From: Aedoeadaptatus urinae
GTDB lineage: Bacteria > Bacillota > Clostridia > Tissierellales > Peptoniphilaceae
Direction of reading: 5' to 3'
Length of the DNA: 64,000 bases
Assembly (NCBI RefSeq): GCF_900155585.1
Contig: NZ_LT707416.1
Span: 186,001 to 250,000, forward strand
The first letter of the stretch is position 1; every line of letters starts with the position of its first letter. Made by a program: the position numbers and the translations under genes. Below, piece by piece: positions 45,964-58,013 of this stretch. The notes below the pieces were generated by a model. It did not search any database. It was not told the origin of the DNA and was given only the letters and a program-made list of their open reading frames with translations.

Positions 45964-46884
45964 ATGGCATTTATCGACCGCGTACCGGAAGAATTTCGCA
46001 CCACCGGTCCCGTCGGCGTCCTGCAATTAAATATTACGGGCAAATGCAATTTGCGATGCGCTCACTGCCACGTCATGAAAAATTCCGAATTCGACGAAAT
46101 GTCGAAGGAAACCATGGACAAATGCATGGAGGCATTGAAGAAGCACCGCTTCCATACGGTGGACATTACCGGCGGCGAGCCGACGACCCATCCCCTCCTC
46201 ATTCCTTTTATCCGCGAGGTGAGCGAGTATACCGACGACATTATCCTTCGGACCAATGCCGTGGCCATCGACAAAAATCCCGAGCTTATGGAGCTCTTGG
46301 ATGAAAAGAATATCCACGTCGTCGTGTCCCTGCCCTGTTACACGGAAGAAAACGTGGACTCCCAACGAGGCGAAGGCACCTTTAAGCACGTGATCCCCAA
46401 TTTGCGGAAGCTCAACGCCATGGGCTACGGCAGCAAGAAGGACCTGTCCCTGGTGAACAATCCCCTGGGCGCCTATTTGCCCGGCCCTCAAGAGGGCTTA
46501 GAGGCCGATTACCGCAAGTATTTGGAAGAAGAGGGCGTGGAATTTTCCGAGCTCTTCACCATTACCAATATGCCCATGGGCTATTTCGGCGACAAGCTGC
46601 GGGAGGAAGGCATTGAAGAGGAGTACATGAAGCTCTTGGAGGACAATTTCAATCCCGACACCGTGGAAAACCTCATGTGCCGCTTCCAAATTTCCGTGGA
46701 CCCCAAGGGCCGCATCTACGACTGCGATTTCCATCAAGCGGAAAGAATCCCCGCCGCCACCTATAAGACCATCGACGAGGTGATCGAAGCCGACGAGCTG
46801 TCCCGCCCCATCGTGTGGAAGGAATACTGCTACGGCTGCACGGCCGGAGCCGGAAGCAGCTGCGGCGGCGCATTGGCGGAATAA
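45964..46884 (+). CDS. ArsS-like radical SAM protein
   Basis: This 306-residue radical SAM enzyme has the cluster motif C-x3-C-x2-C in 'ITGKCNLRCAHCHV' and 'DITGGEPTTHPLLIPF'. The C-terminal half matches the ArsS/DUF3641 pattern: 'DLSLVNNPLGAYLPGPQ', 'ITNMPMGYFGDKLR', 'NLMCRFQISVDPKGRIYDCD' in part, and 'CYGCTAGAGSSCGGAL'. ArsS acts in arsenosugar synthesis in some bacteria, but no arsM or ars gene is adjacent. The true substrate is open. It has its own extended -10 promoter (TGC-TATGAT, 45916-45924) and a terminator. Confidence 0.85.
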   Translation: MAFIDRVPEEFRTTGPVGVLQLNITGKCNLRCAHCHVMKNSEFDEMSKETMDKCMEALKKHRFHTVDITGGEPTTHPLLIPFIREVSEYTDDIILRTNAVAIDKNPELMELLDEKNIHVVVSLPCYTEENVDSQRGEGTFKHVIPNLRKLNAMGYGSKKDLSLVNNPLGAYLPGPQEGLEADYRKYLEEEGVEFSELFTITNMPMGYFGDKLREEGIEEEYMKLLEDNFNPDTVENLMCRFQISVDPKGRIYDCDFHQAERIPAATYKTIDEVIEADELSRPIVWKEYCYGCTAGAGSSCGGALAE

Positions 46885-46919: not shown

Positions 46920-46954
46920 AATCGAGTGAGCATTTCGCTTGCTCGATTTTTTTT
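46920..46954 (+). terminator. Terminator of the ArsS-like gene
   Basis: AATCGAG pairs with CTCGATT, extended by G·T and A+G/C+T pairs around ATTTC, and is followed by eight Ts. Confidence 0.9.
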
Positions 46955-47020: not shown

Positions 47021-47029
47021 TGCTATAAT
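47021..47029 (+). promoter_or_regulatory. Extended -10 of the Dlt-like operon
   Basis: TG-C-TATAAT at 47021-47029 places the start of transcription near 47036. The A-domain gene's AAGGGGG RBS and TTG start follow. Confidence 0.65.
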
Positions 47030-47063: not shown

Positions 47064-48572
47064 TTGCTTAACAGCTTAGCGAACTATCTGGAAGAGAGTG
47101 CCCGTCGCTTTCCGGACAAATTGGCTTTGTCCGACGAAAAACTGGAACTGACCTTTCGACAAATGCGAGAAGCCGCTCAAAAAGTCGCCTCGTATATATG
47201 CAGGGAATATGGCGCAAAAAATCGCCCCGTGGCCGTGGAGGTGGATCGGGCGAGCCAATCCGTCGTCCTTTTTCTGGGCGTCCTCTACAGCGGAAATTTC
47301 TATGTACCCATGGACAAGCGCATGCCGAAGGAGCGCATGGCGCAAATTTTAGACGACGTGGATCCCCTTCTCTGTCTGGGCATCAAAGAAAAAAATATCT
47401 TCAACGACTTTGCTTATCCGGCGAAGAGCTACGACGCCCTTATGGAAGAAGAAATCGACGAGAGCGGGGTTGAAAGGGCCGTAAAGGGAACCATCGACAT
47501 GGATCCCGCCTACATGATCTACACCTCCGGCTCCACCGGCCGCCCGAAAGGCGTCGTCATCAGCCATCGCATGGTCATGGATTTTGCGGATTTTCTTTCC
47601 TGCACCTTCTCCATTACCGGGGAAGACATTATCGCCAATCAGGCGCCCTTCTACTTCGATTGCTCGGTAAAGGGGATTTACCAAATGCTCAGAAACGGCG
47701 CTACTTTATATATTTTGCGGCCGTCTTATTTTATGTTCCCTATTAAGGCCGTGGAATTTTTTAACGAAAAAAAAGTCACCACCCTTCTTTGGGCCACATC
47801 GGGGCTCAATATTATTTCCGGCTCCGGGGCATTGAGCAAGATCAAGCCGACGACTTTAAAGCGGGTCTTCTTTTCCGGCGAAACCCTTTACGGAAAAAAT
47901 TACCTGCCCTGGAAAGAAGCCTGCGCACCGGATGCCCGCTTCATCAATCTTTACGGCCCCACGGAAGTGACGGTGGACTGCTGCTACTACGAAATCCATC
48001 GCGAATTCAGCGCCGAAGAGGTGATTCCCATCGGCGGTGCCTGCCCGAATATGGAGGTTTTTCTCCTGGACGAGAAAGACGAGCCCGTCGCCGGGGAGGG
48101 ACTCGGGGAAATTTGCGCCCGAGGAACGGGAATTGCCTACGGCTATTACAAGGATCCCGAGAAGACGGAAGCCGTCTTCGTTCAAAATCCCCGCCACGGA
48201 AATTACCGGGACATTATCTACCGAACCGGTGACCTGGCTCGCACCAACGAGCACGGGGAATTGATCTTCGTCTCCAGAAAGGATCAACAGATCAAGCATC
48301 AGGGCAATCGCATCGAGCTGGGAGAGTTGGAAGCGGCGGCCAATAAAATCGAGAGCGTGAGAGAATCCGTGGCCTTTTACGATTACGAGGCCAGGAGCAT
48401 TATTCTCGCCTACAGCGGCGAGGAAGATGGCGCCCTTTCCCATAAGCTGAAGGAGCAAGTGCCGAAATACATGTTGCCGGCCGAGATTTTATTTTATGAG
48501 AAATTCCCTTATAATAGAAACGGTAAAATCGACCGCACGAGGATAAAGGCGGATTACGATGAAAAAAATTGA
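47064..48572 (+). CDS. DltA-like amino acid adenylation enzyme
   Basis: This 502-residue stand-alone adenylation enzyme has the A-domain core motifs 'MIYTSGSTGRPKGVVISHR', 'NQAPFYFDCSVKGIY', 'INLYGPTEVTVDCC', 'IIYRTGDLAR', 'QIKHQGNRIELGELE' and 'YNRNGKIDRT'. Layout and length match DltA, which loads D-alanine on a carrier. At the position of the DltA 'FCGE' cysteine it has Ser271 (FFSGE), so the amino acid may differ. The start is TTG with AAGGGGG upstream. It is the first gene of a five-gene operon and overlaps the GNAT gene by 14 bases. Confidence 0.9.
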   Translation: MLNSLANYLEESARRFPDKLALSDEKLELTFRQMREAAQKVASYICREYGAKNRPVAVEVDRASQSVVLFLGVLYSGNFYVPMDKRMPKERMAQILDDVDPLLCLGIKEKNIFNDFAYPAKSYDALMEEEIDESGVERAVKGTIDMDPAYMIYTSGSTGRPKGVVISHRMVMDFADFLSCTFSITGEDIIANQAPFYFDCSVKGIYQMLRNGATLYILRPSYFMFPIKAVEFFNEKKVTTLLWATSGLNIISGSGALSKIKPTTLKRVFFSGETLYGKNYLPWKEACAPDARFINLYGPTEVTVDCCYYEIHREFSAEEVIPIGGACPNMEVFLLDEKDEPVAGEGLGEICARGTGIAYGYYKDPEKTEAVFVQNPRHGNYRDIIYRTGDLARTNEHGELIFVSRKDQQIKHQGNRIELGELEAAANKIESVRESVAFYDYEARSIILAYSGEEDGALSHKLKEQVPKYMLPAEILFYEKFPYNRNGKIDRTRIKADYDEKN

Positions 48573-49344
48573 AACGATCGCGGAATTTAACGAGATCTTC
48601 AGGGCCAATTTGTCGAAAAAGGGCTTTTCCAATCTGGAGGGCCTGCTTTTCGATGCCGAAGGGCTGATCCGTCAGGGGACGCTTTTCTACGAGCCCGTGG
48701 ACGGAGGCGTCTTCTTTTTTCAAGACGAGGGGGCTTATTTTCAAACCTACCACGCCTTGAAGGGCGACGTGACTTCCGCCATCTGCCCCCGTCGGGAGAA
48801 GCCCTGTATCTTGGATTTTATTTTTAAACCGGGGAAGGAAGGGGCCTTTCCCGCCCTTTTGGAAGAGGGCGGCTGGCGCCCCTATATGAAGAGGCGCTCC
48901 GCTACCATGGACGTGGGCGAGGCGGCGAGGGCCGGGGTCCTCGCCCGGGAAGAGGATGCGGAGAAAATTACGGAGCTTCAGTGGAACCACATCGACCCCT
49001 ACACCGGCCACTGTCTGCCCGTAGATGAGATGGCGGAGGAAATAAAAAACGAACGCGTCTTTGCATCTTATGACGGCGCACGGCTCCGCGGCTATCTCAG
49101 GTATTCGAGCCGCTCTCGCCACTTGATTTTGGAAAACATCGTCGTCTCCCCGGGCGCCAGAGGCGAGGGCGTGGGAAGAGAATTGGTCGAGATGCTTATG
49201 GCTGTGGCGAAAGAGAAGGGTTTTTCCGCCATACGCCTGTGGGTTCGGGAAGACAACGAGGCGGCCATTCGCCTCTACGGCGGCTTTCCCTTCCGCTTCG
49301 GCGACTATGAATGTGTGAATTATATTTTAGAGGAAATGAGGTAA
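48559..49344 (+). CDS. Two-domain GNAT acyltransferase
   Basis: This 261-residue protein has a C-terminal GNAT domain (about residues 125-255) with β4-motif A 'HLILENIVVSPGARGEGVGR', where 'RGEGVGR' is the acyl-CoA loop, and 'VREDNEAAIRLYGGFPFRFG'. The first ~120 residues form a second, degenerate-looking domain ('YEPVDGGVFFFQDEGAYFQ'). It lies between the adenylation and carrier genes. It could N-acylate the amino acid handled by this operon; that is inference. Confidence 0.82.
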   Translation: MKKIETIAEFNEIFRANLSKKGFSNLEGLLFDAEGLIRQGTLFYEPVDGGVFFFQDEGAYFQTYHALKGDVTSAICPRREKPCILDFIFKPGKEGAFPALLEEGGWRPYMKRRSATMDVGEAARAGVLAREEDAEKITELQWNHIDPYTGHCLPVDEMAEEIKNERVFASYDGARLRGYLRYSSRSRHLILENIVVSPGARGEGVGRELVEMLMAVAKEKGFSAIRLWVREDNEAAIRLYGGFPFRFGDYECVNYILEEMR

Positions 49345-49346
49345 GG

Positions 49347-49580
49347 ATGGATACGAGAGAAAGGGTCATTGCCCTGATTCGTGAGATCAACGAGGACTTT
49401 GATCCGGAAGAAAATGTGGATTTAATCGAAGAGGAAATTTTAGATTCCTTCGACATGATTTCGTTTATTATCGAAGTGAAAGAGGAATTCGGCGTGACGA
49501 TCGGAGTCGATGACATTGTTCCCGAAAACTTTGCCACCGTCGATCAAATCGCGGATCTTATCGAGCAACTGGACGAATGA
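49347..49580 (+). CDS. Acyl/peptidyl carrier protein (DltC-like)
   Basis: This 77-residue acidic helical carrier has the phosphopantetheine Ser in 'EEEILDSFDMISFIIEVKEE' and 'TVDQIADLIEQL' at the end. GAGG precedes the ATG at 49347. Its place between an adenylation enzyme and an MBOAT protein is that of dltC. It overlaps the MBOAT gene by 4 bases. Confidence 0.9.
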   Translation: MDTRERVIALIREINEDFDPEENVDLIEEEILDSFDMISFIIEVKEEFGVTIGVDDIVPENFATVDQIADLIEQLDE

Positions 49581-51046
49581 TTTTATTTAAAGGCACATAC
49601 ATCGCCTTCGTAATTTGTGTAATACTTGCCTATTACACAATTTTTCGGCGTGCTCAATGGACGCTTCTTCTGGCGGCGTCCCTTTTCTTTTACGTCTATT
49701 TTACGAAATCCTATTTTATTTTCTTCTCCATCATCAATATCTACCTGTTCTCCCTCCTGGTCCATAGAATCGAGAACAAGGGCTTGAAAAAGGCGGCGGT
49801 AACGGCCTGCCTCCTCTTTAACTTTTCCTTTTTATTTCTCATCAAGTACACGCCCCTTCTTTCCAATCGCTTTAATCTTTTGATTCCCCTGGGCATTTCC
49901 TTTTACATGTTCCAGTCCATATCCTACATTATGGACCTCTATTGGGGCAGGGTGGAAATCGAAAGGAACCCCTTTAAGCTGGCTCTGTTTATTTCCTACT
50001 TTCCCCAAGTCATTCAAGGGCCCATCGGCCGCTTCGACGCACTTATGCCTCAGCTCTTGGAAAACAAGGCCTATGATTCGGACAATCTGCGCTACGGCTT
50101 CGAAACCATTTGTTGGGGCGCCTTTAAAAAGATTTTTATCGCCGACCACCTGGGCCTTCTGGTCAATACGGTCTTCGACTCCTACGGCTCCTATCCCGGC
50201 CTCTTTGTATTTCTGACGGTCTTTGCCTACAGCATACAGATCTACGCGGACTTTTCCGGCGGCATCGACATTATTCGAGGGATTTCCCAAATCCTGGGCA
50301 TCGACATGGCCGTGAACTTTCGCCGCCCCTTCTTTTCCCGCTCCCTGGCCGACTTTTGGCGTCGCTGGCATATTTCCCTGGGTACGTGGATGAAAGATTA
50401 CGTCTTTTATCCCCTGAACCTGTCACGGCCCCTGGTCTTCGTCAACAAGAAGGCGAAGAAACACTTCGGACGGAAGCGGGGCAAATTAATTTCCATTTGC
50501 CTCTCCACCTATATCCTCTATTTCATCGTGGGGATATGGCACGGCGCCGGCACGAATTACGTCCTTTACGGCCTGTGGAACGGCACGATTATTTCCTTCA
50601 GCCTGTATTTGGAAGGGACCTACAAGAAAACCCTGGCGAAGCTGGGCATCGACCCCAAGGCCCGGGTCTACACCCTCTTTCAAATTATTCGCACCAATCT
50701 TCTCGTGACCTTGGGCAGATACTTTTCCAGAGCATCGGGGGCTCTCGTGGCCCTGAAGATGTGGGCCCACACCTTTAAAAATTTCCATTTGGGCTCCGCG
50801 CCCCTGTATTTGCTCCACGAAATGGGCTACACGAATAACGAGCTGATCGTGCTTTTTATCAGCATCTTCTTGGTCTTTCTCGTGGACCTGGCCTTCGAGG
50901 GGGGCGTCAATCTATACAAGAGCTTCGACGAAGCGTCCACGCCGGTGCAACTCGGCGTCATCGGCGCCTTTGCCCTCGCCTTCGTCGTCTTCGTCGTCTA
51001 TGCCGGGGGCTATGTGCCCACGGAATTTATCTATCGCCAGTACTAG
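49577..51046 (+). CDS. MBOAT family acyltransferase (DltB-like)
   Basis: This 489-residue membrane protein of about 11 helices has 'SLADFWRRWHISLGTWMKDY' and the catalytic-His segment 'FIVGIWHGAGTNYVLYGLWN', both signatures of DltB/AlgI-type O-acyltransferases. It would take the acyl group from the carrier protein and move it to an acceptor at the outer face. Unlike B. subtilis dltABCD, the order here is A-GNAT-C-B-hydrolase. Confidence 0.93.
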   Translation: MILFKGTYIAFVICVILAYYTIFRRAQWTLLLAASLFFYVYFTKSYFIFFSIINIYLFSLLVHRIENKGLKKAAVTACLLFNFSFLFLIKYTPLLSNRFNLLIPLGISFYMFQSISYIMDLYWGRVEIERNPFKLALFISYFPQVIQGPIGRFDALMPQLLENKAYDSDNLRYGFETICWGAFKKIFIADHLGLLVNTVFDSYGSYPGLFVFLTVFAYSIQIYADFSGGIDIIRGISQILGIDMAVNFRRPFFSRSLADFWRRWHISLGTWMKDYVFYPLNLSRPLVFVNKKAKKHFGRKRGKLISICLSTYILYFIVGIWHGAGTNYVLYGLWNGTIISFSLYLEGTYKKTLAKLGIDPKARVYTLFQIIRTNLLVTLGRYFSRASGALVALKMWAHTFKNFHLGSAPLYLLHEMGYTNNELIVLFISIFLVFLVDLAFEGGVNLYKSFDEASTPVQLGVIGAFALAFVVFVVYAGGYVPTEFIYRQY

Positions 51047-51058
51047 AAAGGAACGGAT

Positions 51059-52891
51059 ATGACCACGAAAAAATTTTTTATAATGATCGTCTCCGTCCTC
51101 GTCCTCATCTTTGCCGCCATCGGCGCGGGCAATTACTTTATCAATCCCTTCGGCCTGTTTAACGAGTCTCTCATGGATTGGGATTCCTATAATTTCACGC
51201 AAAATCCCCGGACGGCGAAAATTCATTACATCGACAAGAATCACGATAAGTACAATGCCTACATCGTCGGCTCCTCCGGCTGCGGCAGCCTCGATCCCAA
51301 ACAGCTGAGCAGCTACACGGGAAAGAGCTACTACAACAGCTTTTATTACGGCTCCGACCTTTTGGACTCCTATGAAACCGTGGATTACCTGATTCGAAAT
51401 TACACCGTGGACGAAATTATGCTGGGCATTAATTACAACACGGCGATCAATTTCGACATCGGGGAAGACCAGCTGAATCTGCGCATGCCGGCCAAGCTTT
51501 CCGGGAAAAGTCTCTTGGCCTTTTACAAAGACTATCTTTTCGCCGATCCGCGGTATTTCGTAAACAAGCTGAGGGACAAGAGGAAAGACACCTTCTTCAC
51601 TCAAGACTTCGACGTCTTTCTCCCCGAAACCGGCAGCTACGACAAGCGGCTCAGGGACACGGAAGGCATCGGCGATTTAAACGCCTATGTGGAGAAAGAG
51701 GACTATCGGGTTTTTCAGGACTACCCTCGGGAAGTGAAGCCCTTTGCAAAAATGAAGGAATTTAAAGAGACCATGGCGGCCATTAAAAAGCTTTGCGACG
51801 AGAACCATGTGAAGCTCACCGTGGTGGTGATCCCCATTTACAAGGACGACTTCCCCAACTATCCCGCGAAGGATTTGGATCTTTTCTACAGAAGTTTGGC
51901 CGAGATCACGCCCTTCTGGGATTTTTCCAAATCGTCGATTTCCGCCGATCCCCGCTATTTTTACGACGCCACCCACTTCAGAAACAGCGTGGGCCGCATG
52001 ATTCTGGATCGAATCTACGACAAGGGCGACGACTATATTCCGGAGGATTTCGGTCACTACGTGGATCGCAAGGGCGTCGAGGATTTTTTAGCCTCCTTCC
52101 GGCAATACGAGGTGGTTCGCAATGAAGCGAACTATACTAAAAAGCTTCCCGTCCTCATGCTCCACCACATCGGCGAAGGTGATTATGCCATTTCCGAGGA
52201 CAAGCTGAAGGCCTATCTGACGGCGATTCGTGGGGCGGGCTACCATACGGTGGGCTTGCAGGACCTGTATAACTACGTCTACAAGGGCGTGGATTTAGGG
52301 GACAATCCCATTCTCATCACCTTCGACGACGGCTATTTAAGCAATTACGACAAGGCCTTTCCCCTTTTGAAGGAAATGAATATGAAGGCGGTCATATACT
52401 GCGTCGGCTCTACCTTCGGATCCTCCACCTATAAGGACACGGGCGAGCCGATTATTCCCCATTTCGGCGAAAAAGAAGCGCGGGAGATGCAGGATTCCGG
52501 CCTCATCGACATACAAAGCCACAGCTTTGATATGCATCAATCGGAAGAATTGGAAACAAAGAAGCCGGTGCGCATAGACATGGGGCAATTTCCCCACGAA
52601 ACGGAAGAGGAGTATATGAAGGCCTTCGGCGACGATTTCAAGAAAGAGGATTTGCTGATCCGCGCAGTGACGGGGCAGCCCATCCGCGCCGTCGCCTATC
52701 CCCGCGGCACCTATTCCGATATGACTCAGGGCCTGTTGGGCCTATACGGCGTCTGCGCCACCTTTACCTCGGATACCGGGGTCAACACCCTGATCAAAGG
52801 GCTGCCCCAATCCCTTTACGGGCTGAAGCGCATCGAGGTGGAGGCCAATTTGACGCCGGAGGAACTTTTGCAAAAGATTCGCGGCGAATAA
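51059..52891 (+). CDS. SGNH/DltD-like domain fused to a NodB polysaccharide deacetylase
   Basis: This 610-residue protein has an N-terminal signal anchor (residues 6-26). A domain of about 330 residues follows with 'AYIVGSSGCGSLDPKQL' (GSS nucleophile block) and 'YFYDATHFRNSVGRMIL' (D-x2-H block), as in DltD/AlgX-like SGNH proteins. From about residue 360 is a NodB domain with 'ILITFDDGYLSNY' (catalytic Asp pair), 'IQSHSFDMH' (metal His) and 'AVAYPRGTYSDM'. It may finish acyl transfer and deacetylate or remodel the same polymer. The fusion is unusual to me. Confidence 0.85.
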   Translation: MTTKKFFIMIVSVLVLIFAAIGAGNYFINPFGLFNESLMDWDSYNFTQNPRTAKIHYIDKNHDKYNAYIVGSSGCGSLDPKQLSSYTGKSYYNSFYYGSDLLDSYETVDYLIRNYTVDEIMLGINYNTAINFDIGEDQLNLRMPAKLSGKSLLAFYKDYLFADPRYFVNKLRDKRKDTFFTQDFDVFLPETGSYDKRLRDTEGIGDLNAYVEKEDYRVFQDYPREVKPFAKMKEFKETMAAIKKLCDENHVKLTVVVIPIYKDDFPNYPAKDLDLFYRSLAEITPFWDFSKSSISADPRYFYDATHFRNSVGRMILDRIYDKGDDYIPEDFGHYVDRKGVEDFLASFRQYEVVRNEANYTKKLPVLMLHHIGEGDYAISEDKLKAYLTAIRGAGYHTVGLQDLYNYVYKGVDLGDNPILITFDDGYLSNYDKAFPLLKEMNMKAVIYCVGSTFGSSTYKDTGEPIIPHFGEKEAREMQDSGLIDIQSHSFDMHQSEELETKKPVRIDMGQFPHETEEEYMKAFGDDFKKEDLLIRAVTGQPIRAVAYPRGTYSDMTQGLLGLYGVCATFTSDTGVNTLIKGLPQSLYGLKRIEVEANLTPEELLQKIRGE

Positions 52892-52906: not shown

Positions 52907-52939
52907 AAAAAGACGAGCCCCGATTCGGGACTCGTTTTT
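52907..52939. terminator. Bidirectional terminator
   Basis: ACGAG-CCCG pairs with CGGG-CTCGT around a short loop, with As on the left and Ts on the right. It ends the Dlt-like operon and the converging DUF3783 gene. Confidence 0.88.
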
Positions 52940-57110: not shown

Positions 57111-58013
57111 ATGAAATGTCGTTATTGCGGTTATGAAAATGAGCCCGGTGTAAAATTTTGTGCGTCCTGCTCAACGCCCATGGTCTATCCCCTGGGCTAC
57201 AAGCCCGAGGACGAGGCAACCGTTGAAAAGGCGGAGCCCGTGAAGGAAGCGCCGAAGGCCGAAGAAAAACCCGTGAAGGAAGTCGCTGAGGAAAAATCGG
57301 AAGCGAAGCCTGTAGAGAAAGTTGCCGAAGAAAAGCCGGCAGCACCGGAAGAAAAGGCGCCGGCTCGCGGGGAAGCGCCGAAAGAAAAAGAAGCGCCGGC
57401 TGAAAAACCGATCGAGGTCCCGGAAAAGGTCGAGGCCGCAGATGCCTATAAGGAATCGAAGCCTGTAGAGAAAGTTGCCGAAGAAAAGCCGGCAGCACCG
57501 GAAGAAAAGGCGCCGGCTCGCGGGGAAGCGCCGAAAGAAAAAGAAGCGCCGGCTGAAAAACCGATCGAGGTCCCGGAAAAGGTCGAGGCCGCAGATGCTT
57601 ATAAGGAATCGAAGCCCGTGGACAAGCGCAAGAAACAGGCGCAAAAGCGGAAGAAAAAGGCGGAAAAGAAACCGGAAAAGGACGCAAGGGTTAGCGCCGA
57701 GGAAAAACGCCTGGAGCATCAAAGCCACAGCGCTAAGCCGGCGCCGAAAAAGGAAGCCCCGGAAAAGAAAAAACCGGAAGAAAAACCGGCTCCCGTAAAA
57801 GAAGCGCCGAAAAAAGAAGCCGCACCGGAAAAGAAAGCACCGGAAGGGTTGAAGGAAAAAGCAGTCGCTCCCGATAAAAAGGAAGCACCGGCCAAGGCAC
57901 CGGAAAAGAAACCGGAAAGAAAGCCCGAGCCCAAGAAAGGCCGCATCAGCCCGGTCCTCGTGGCCATCGTCCTTTTGATTCTGCTCTTTATCATCTATAA
58001 AGCCGTGAAATGA
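57111..58013 (+). CDS. Zinc-ribbon protein with Lys/Glu/Pro/Ala repeats and a C-terminal membrane anchor
   Basis: This 300-residue protein has an N-terminal zinc ribbon (C-x2-C ... C-x2-C: 'CRYCGYENEPGVKFCASC'). A low-complexity charged region of about 240 residues follows, then a C-terminal membrane helix ('ISPVLVAIVLLILLFIIYKA') four residues from the end, as in tail-anchored proteins. The charged region contains two 51-residue units encoded by 153-bp repeats at 57304-57609. Zinc-ribbon/tail-anchor proteins occur widely in Firmicutes without defined roles. AAGGAGG precedes the ATG. It overlaps the AlkD-like gene by 4 bases. Confidence 0.85.
   Translation: MKCRYCGYENEPGVKFCASCSTPMVYPLGYKPEDEATVEKAEPVKEAPKAEEKPVKEVAEEKSEAKPVEKVAEEKPAAPEEKAPARGEAPKEKEAPAEKPIEVPEKVEAADAYKESKPVEKVAEEKPAAPEEKAPARGEAPKEKEAPAEKPIEVPEKVEAADAYKESKPVDKRKKQAQKRKKKAEKKPEKDARVSAEEKRLEHQSHSAKPAPKKEAPEKKKPEEKPAPVKEAPKKEAAPEKKAPEGLKEKAVAPDKKEAPAKAPEKKPERKPEPKKGRISPVLVAIVLLILLFIIYKAVK
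57304..57609 (+). repeat. Two tandem 153-bp in-frame repeats
   Basis: Unit 1 is 57304-57456 and unit 2 is 57457-57609. By eye they differ at one base (GATGCCTAT against GATGCTTAT), a silent change. Each encodes 51 residues beginning KPVEKVAEEK (unit boundary arbitrary). The near-identity indicates a recent duplication or ongoing homogenisation. Confidence 0.93.

Follow-up and report, generated by a model that had tools for sequence, protein, structure and literature searches.

A Dlt-like operon of Aedoeadaptatus urinae with a GNAT and an SGNH/NodB fusion: a candidate modular system for envelope-polymer acylation

Results

Gene organization of the operon

A five-gene operon of Aedoeadaptatus urinae (Bacillota; Clostridia) lies in a stretch of 64,000 nucleotides (assembly GCF_900155585.1, contig NZ_LT707416.1, positions 186,001 to 250,000), hereafter called the window. 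A sequence-only reading had described it as a tight, Dlt-like operon encoding an adenylation enzyme (A), a GNAT, a carrier protein, an MBOAT, and an SGNH/NodB fusion. Its coordinates were confirmed, with spacings of -14, +2, -4, and +12 bases between successive genes, and Pfam and NCBIfam models matched gene by gene (AMP-binding, GNAT, PP-binding, MBOAT, and polysaccharide deacetylase, respectively). At the putative operon promoter, the promoter scan gave no full sigma-70 match. Base composition showed no signal of horizontal transfer (GC content 0.513 in the operon and 0.514 in the window), and no polymer genes adjoining the operon were evident by eye in the window.

Table 1 Features of the operon and of related loci (L numbers denote loci of the comparative sample).
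Feature	Position	Strand	Basis
Terminator-like hairpin, 3' of the upstream radical-SAM-like gene	46920..46948	+	Hairpin scan
Putative operon promoter, extended -10-like TGCTATAAT	47021..47029	+	By eye
Amino-acid adenylation enzyme (A), stand-alone; pocket code DCKLFSLVD	47064..48572	+	Family models, pocket alignment
Tandem-fold GNAT acetyltransferase; RGEGVG loop in C-terminal half	48559..49344	+	Family model, fold
Stand-alone carrier protein; phosphopantetheine Ser in LDSFDM	49347..49580	+	Family models; Ser by eye
PatA-like MBOAT acyltransferase; His322 invariant in 18/18 aligned rows	49577..51046	+	Family models, alignment
Acyl-shuttle motif FIYRQY at the MBOAT C-terminus; Tyr486 invariant in 18/18 aligned rows	51026..51043	+	Alignment; motif described in PMC12148441
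Membrane-anchored SGNH acyltransferase half; Ser73, Asp303, His306	51059..52093	+	Alignment, predicted fold
NodB (CE4, NodB2-type motif order) de-N-acetylase domain; Asp423, Asp424, His488, His493	52124..52888	+	Family model, alignment, fold
Terminator-like hairpin 3' of the operon	52913..52935	Listed on -	T-run also follows on the + strand, by eye
Asp/Glu racemase near A-carrier-MBOAT-SGNH operon	L159:9409-10149 (and 16 more loci)		
FkbH loader in operons with carrier, MBOAT, and SGNH/NodB fusion	L229:2606-3658, L230:4248-5273, L233:1-1086		

Adenylation enzyme and relation to D-alanylation

The A protein passed the amino-acid adenylation model TIGR01733 (323.7 bits against a cut-off of 317.4) and fell far below the DltA cut-offs (273 bits against 560 for TIGR01734 and 274 against 476 for NF003417). 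The carrier likewise stayed below the DltC cut-offs (40.4 bits against 68 and 27.1 against 52.35) and the MBOAT below that of DltB (160 bits against 375), and no operon protein matched the DltD model. These scores bear out the description of the operon as Dlt-like without being canonical Dlt.

In the numbering of GrsA (positions 235, 236, 239, 278, 299, 301, 322, 330, and 331), the pocket of A reads DCKLFSLVD. Four DltA-like proteins from relatives, all of them below the DltA cut-off, read DLMVLCTVA, DLMVLCTVC, DLMVICTVC, and DLIIIIGCG; residue 301 is Ser in A and Cys in three of these four, and Cys at 301 marks the D-Ala pocket of DltA. The pocket of the serine enzyme EntF (DVWHFSLVD) agrees with that of A at six of nine positions, while K239 and D331 resemble the Glu code of surfactin synthetase. 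The predicted substrate, at low certainty, is a polar L-amino acid, with Glu and Ser as the leading candidates, rather than D-Ala. Because the DltA, DltB, and DltC models score below cut-off, the DltD model has no match, and the pocket differs from those of DltA-like proteins, the operon is probably not a D-alanylation system.

The host genome (1.82 Mb, four contigs, 99% complete) contains a single MBOAT match and a single AMP-binding match, both in the operon, and no other dlt operon was found in it. Among 61 genomes (relatives and the window's own), none passed the DltA cut-off of 559.85; the best score was 558.6 and three others were 484 to 553, values suggesting that some relatives, though only a few, do possess a true DltA. 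The sequence-only reading had held that strict D-Ala specificity, the lack of another dlt operon, and a GNAT missing from most related operons would together mark an ordinary dlt locus with a passenger. Indeed, no other dlt operon was found, and across the wider family 73 of 98 loci have no GNAT; on the other hand, the pocket is unlike that of DltA, and among loci of the window's type a GNAT is the norm.

MBOAT and acyl-shuttle motif

An acyl-shuttle motif of the FIYRQY kind (F-x-Y-x-x-F/Y) has been described for PatA-type MBOATs, and in that account, from 2025, fused-motif MBOAT-SGNH pathways are acyl-CoA-dependent and lack a carrier protein (PMC12148441). The window's MBOAT has both the conserved His and the fused C-terminal motif. 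The donor differs from the published description: instead of acyl-CoA without a carrier, A and a carrier protein are encoded in the operon and conserved in relatives. The motif sits on the MBOAT and not on a separate DltX microprotein, in a list of open reading frames from 70 amino acids up. The MBOAT is of the PatA type with a fused shuttle motif, a feature absent from the sequence-only reading. Since the PatA-type fused motif coexists with a carrier protein, the operon is a hybrid of the pathways distinguished in PMC12148441.

SGNH/NodB fusion protein

The N-terminal half of the last protein matched no family model at E 0.001; its identity as SGNH is therefore drawn from the alignment and the predicted fold, which matches PatB and DltD. 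Its residues Ser73, Asp303, and His306 were retained in 23 of 23 rows, window included. In the NodB half, Asp423, Asp424, His488, His493, Pro548, and Gly550 were likewise present in 23/23 rows, and His369 was invariant in 12/12. All motifs of CE4 enzymes of the NodB2 type (Asp-Asp, two His, an N-terminal His, and YPxG) were found. The fold is of the PgaB/PplD kind (E about 1e-14), with the deformylase ArnD ranking much lower (E 1.9e-3). One related SGNH/NodB protein (L008:2850-5399, 849 amino acids) extends further at its C-terminus, where inspection by eye suggests a domain of metallo-beta-lactamase fold.

Comparison of related operons

Two sets of loci were compared, the first consisting of 80 loci (those ranking highest in MBOAT similarity among 206 relatives) and the second of 60 regions, 58 from the upper part of the list of 240 genomes with a match, out of 391 of the class, plus two others. 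Counts use the 98 of 140 loci with an A gene longer than 330 amino acids; the 42 dropped loci include L008, which has a GNAT and NodB and a cut A gene. No pair of the 98 A proteins is 98% or more identical. The GNAT label was given at E up to 0.01. Since the sample is biased toward the best MBOAT matches, the type counts are not prevalences.

The 98 loci comprised 20 with GNAT and NodB fusion, 37 with a pyridoxal phosphate (PLP) decarboxylase, five with GNAT and no NodB (among them L035, whose short slot protein has no family match and was called GNAT by eye only), 29 with no gene between A and carrier, one more of that kind with NodB (L210), and six others. Of the 21 counted loci with both A and the fusion, 20 show the five-gene order, all in a single clade, and two congeners of the window (L235 and L236) also have it in full. 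In a tree of 99 MBOATs (the 98 and the window), the window falls in a set of 22 rows (Shimodaira-Hasegawa-like approximate likelihood ratio test [SH-aLRT] 99) made up of 21 GNAT+NodB rows and L210. The co-occurrence of GNAT and NodB holds in one direction, in that loci with A and the fusion nearly always carry the GNAT. The reverse is looser, as the fusion is missing in 5 of 25 GNAT loci, and NodB also occurs with FkbH loaders and in L210. The NodB residues of L210 are intact, and the best GNAT match elsewhere in its genome was an unconvincing 58-bit stretch with an internal stop.

In all 20 GNAT+NodB loci the GNAT gene lies between A and carrier, the slot that the decarboxylase fills in sister operons. 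A single-sequence GNAT search at E 1e-15 found 4 of the 391 genomes of the class, window included; because it misses divergent members such as G021, it was excluded from the counts.

The pocket codes follow the slot genes. Position 331 is Asp in 20/20 GNAT+NodB loci and Asn in 37/37 decarboxylase loci (L005, L012, L021, L077, and 33 more), whose code is DVKxxSxCN with K239, S301, and N331 kept throughout; GNAT loci without NodB have the Asn code in 4/5 and Asp in the fifth. Codes not starting with D (e.g., SMLYLALDI) look misaligned or derived from other A enzymes and were not interpreted. The decarboxylase label changed at least three times on starred branches of the MBOAT tree (possibly one gain and two losses). 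Repeated label changes with a constant A code suggest that A, tailoring enzyme, and carrier are passed together, as one cassette, from one MBOAT lineage to another. For the L005 decarboxylase, the only one searched, the best-matching solved relatives are BtrK entries, one named L-glutamyl-[BtrI acyl-carrier protein] decarboxylase, and the decarboxylase operons likely export a decarboxylated acidic amino acid. Many of these operons are in Lachnospiraceae, according to the database record.

Of 23 loci with another code, DAKCAGLGM, 17 have a gene for an Asp/Glu racemase no more than 3.5 kb away, versus 0 of 75 others; these loci are not independent, since all belong to one MBOAT clade. The racemase used as query matched PF01177 (132 bits), and these operons are candidates for D-Asp or D-Glu decoration. 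A transglutaminase-like protein adjoins the L159 racemase locus. In otherwise similar operons, the slot gene is formyltransferase-like (L036:6878-7762) or a hexapeptide acyltransferase (L075:5921-6724).

FkbH operons carrying the NodB fusion

When the 391 genomes were searched with the SGNH/NodB alignment, 13 contained the full fusion, and a 14th (G215) showed it as a pair of adjacent matches sharing a reading frame. Nine correspond to GNAT operons already examined, window included, and five are new. In L229, L230, and L233 the order is MBOAT, SGNH/NodB, carrier, and FkbH, with an additional gene before the carrier in L229; of the other new fusions, L231 stands alone and L232 is interrupted by a contig end. 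The FkbH proteins scored 257, 272, and 276 bits against a cut-off of 147, and the MBOATs of these operons end in FLYFQF. No A or GNAT was found in the recovered stretches of these three; L229 and L233 each make up an entire short contig, and in L230 the contig ends near the MBOAT, so that a distant A gene is possible. When 30 fusions were placed in a midpoint-rooted tree, the FkbH rows fell between GNAT rows, with SH-aLRT values of 92 and 83 at the deciding forks. From 1,3-bisphosphoglycerate, FkbH forms glyceryl-carrier; the glyceryl group has no amine, and the C-terminal part of FkbH is GNAT-like. These operons are candidates for glyceryl decoration of an envelope polymer. That a related transferase-deacetylase serves two acyl groups argues that NodB acts on the acceptor, and it probably acts on the acceptor glycan rather than on the acyl group. 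The L231 fusion (6865 onward), with no MBOAT or carrier in the recovered stretch, lies divergent to a gene whose product, by eye, resembles a LytR-CpsA-Psr protein.

Distribution in the genus and neighbouring genes

Three of eight genomes of the genus (G000, G002, and G004) carry the GNAT/NodB operon; of the other five, three encode a different MBOAT next to an SGNH protein that lacks NodB, and two have no MBOAT match at threshold. The window's MBOAT is 63% identical to that of Anaerosphaera and 42-43% to those of two congeners, a pattern indicating that operon lineages were exchanged or differentially lost. The sole sulfatase-family match in the genome (L150:754-2601; G000:C2 about 148,700; 615 amino acids) is a possible maker of the acceptor polymer.

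Upstream of the operon, positions 45964-46884 encode what by eye is a radical SAM protein with a Cys-rich C-terminal tail (CYGCTAGAGSSCGG), resembling ArsS-type enzymes. The product of 57111-58013 has, by eye, a Cys-rich zinc-ribbon-like start, then a Lys/Glu/Pro-rich middle in which a long repeat ends with ADAYKESKPV, and finally a hydrophobic C-terminus.

Discussion

Proposed function and alternatives

Gene content, conserved order, clade, catalytic residues, predicted fold, and the association of pocket code with cassette are shown by the analysis. From these we infer every chemical step of the following scheme, a carrier-dependent envelope-polymer acylation of the MBOAT-SGNH kind, to which we give roughly an even chance. 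A would activate a polar L-amino acid, likeliest Glu or Ser, and load it on the carrier protein, where the tandem GNAT would N-acetylate the aminoacyl group. The MBOAT would pass the N-acetyl-aminoacyl group across the membrane to its own Tyr486 in the C-terminal FIYRQY, and the SGNH half would accept it from the Tyr and esterify an outer glycopolymer. The fused NodB would de-N-acetylate amino sugars in that polymer, with the result that one protein may both add an acyl group and expose an amine. The N-acylation proposed in the sequence-only reading is kept, with its timing shifted: Asp235, which binds the alpha-amine, is kept in the A domains of all 20 GNAT+NodB loci, and acetylation is therefore likelier after loading than before.

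Several observations weigh against this scheme. The first Foldseek match of the GNAT was the effector VipF, not MshD; its substrate is assigned from operon position and fold, and GNAT folds look alike. The A pocket is ambiguous, pointing to Ser by its agreement with EntF and to Glu by K239/D331, and K239 is frequent in operons of the other types as well. The co-occurrence of GNAT and NodB is close to a single evolutionary event, as it falls in one clade, and a test of independent pairs gave three pairs the same way, none the other way, and one without difference (p 0.25), too few to decide. As for the acceptor, the L150 sulfatase is weakly LtaS-like (31 bits against a cut-off of 970), and no TagF-like match was found in the genome.

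The GNAT could instead acetylate an amino sugar precursor of the acceptor, or another metabolite, with a plain aminoacyl group being exported; its constant place between A and carrier, where sister operons hold a tailoring decarboxylase, makes this rather unlikely. Also unlikely, though initially favoured, is a protecting-group route in which the GNAT caps the amine on the carrier, the MBOAT and SGNH export the group, and NodB uncaps it outside, giving a free-amine ester as in D-alanylation. The near-constant GNAT in loci with A and the fusion and the lack of NodB in all 37 decarboxylase loci fit such a route, and vicenistatin offers a precedent for protecting an amino acid while it is bound to a carrier (PMC11284099). 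It was demoted because three NodB fusions are paired with FkbH, which supplies an amine-less group, and because L210 keeps intact NodB residues in an operon without GNAT; the PgaB/PplD-kind fold, with ArnD far lower, also speaks against uncapping.

Transfer of the acyl group to a lipid or a secreted small molecule would agree with the lack of polymer genes evident by eye beside the operon and with the likeness of A and carrier to nonribosomal peptide synthetase parts. It is nevertheless improbable, given the fused PgaB/PplD-type deacetylase and the pairing of a motif-bearing MBOAT with an SGNH partner, a known envelope-polymer acylation arrangement (PMC12148441). An ordinary D-alanylation locus with a passenger GNAT is very improbable: A, carrier, MBOAT, and SGNH do match DltA, DltC, DltB, and DltD in function, and no other MBOAT or AMP-binding gene was found in the genome, but the Dlt model scores, Ser301, the jointly conserved NodB and GNAT, and the motif fused to the MBOAT all oppose it.

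Relation to known systems

The Dlt system of teichoic-acid D-alanylation (DltA, DltB, DltC, DltD, and DltX) likewise combines an adenylation enzyme, a stand-alone carrier, an MBOAT, and an SGNH protein, presumably in one chain of transfer; the window differs in the GNAT, the SGNH-NodB fusion, the motif on the MBOAT rather than DltX, the non-D-Ala-like pocket, and the sub-cut-off scores. Compared with peptidoglycan O-acetylation by PatA/PatB and other MBOAT-SGNH pairs, it encodes A and carrier in place of an acetyl-CoA donor and has NodB fused. The de-N-acetylases PgaB, IcaB, and PplD share the NodB2-type motifs, whereas in the window NodB is fused behind an SGNH acyltransferase. In butirosin biosynthesis, BtrI/J/K represent carrier-bound amino-acid tailoring; sister operons share a BtrK-like decarboxylase with that system, and the window has the GNAT in that slot. 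Vicenistatin VinN/L/O/M also load an amino acid on a stand-alone carrier and modify it there (PMC11284099). Unlike in these two pathways, the product here presumably goes to an MBOAT-SGNH pair and not to an antibiotic. The exosortase A-associated ligase (TIGR03098) and decarboxylase (TIGR03099) models match the window's A and a sister PLP decarboxylase, respectively, below curated cut-offs. The Streptococcus pyogenes qim operon was rejected as a parallel; it involves ribitol and GlcNAc, and the terms acyltransferase and carrier protein are absent from the paper on it. In the open-licence PMC literature, the scope of the search, which did not extend to subscription papers, no published account of the operon was found.

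Implications

More broadly, the operon may belong to a modular class in Clostridia and their kin, in which a fixed export unit (carrier, PatA-type MBOAT with acyl-Tyr shuttle, and SGNH) is served by interchangeable acyl-supply cassettes, the transferase of the window's clade also bearing a glycan deacetylase; we hold this to be a serious possibility, slightly short of an even chance. If so, A with GNAT would supply an N-acetyl-aminoacyl group, A with a BtrK-like decarboxylase a γ-aminobutyrate (GABA) or beta-alanyl type group, A with an Asp/Glu racemase D-Asp or D-Glu, and FkbH a glyceryl group, with A plus a formyltransferase as a further cassette. In textbook accounts, the amino acid that decorates Gram-positive polymers is D-alanine; several new ester decorations would be predicted in clostridia, many of them represented by gut-sample genomes according to the database record. 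Such operons would break the division between carrier-based and fused-motif, acyl-CoA-dependent pathways, as drawn in PMC12148441. For each cassette there would be an acyl group to test for, and substrates could become predictable from the pocket codes, which vary with the cassettes.

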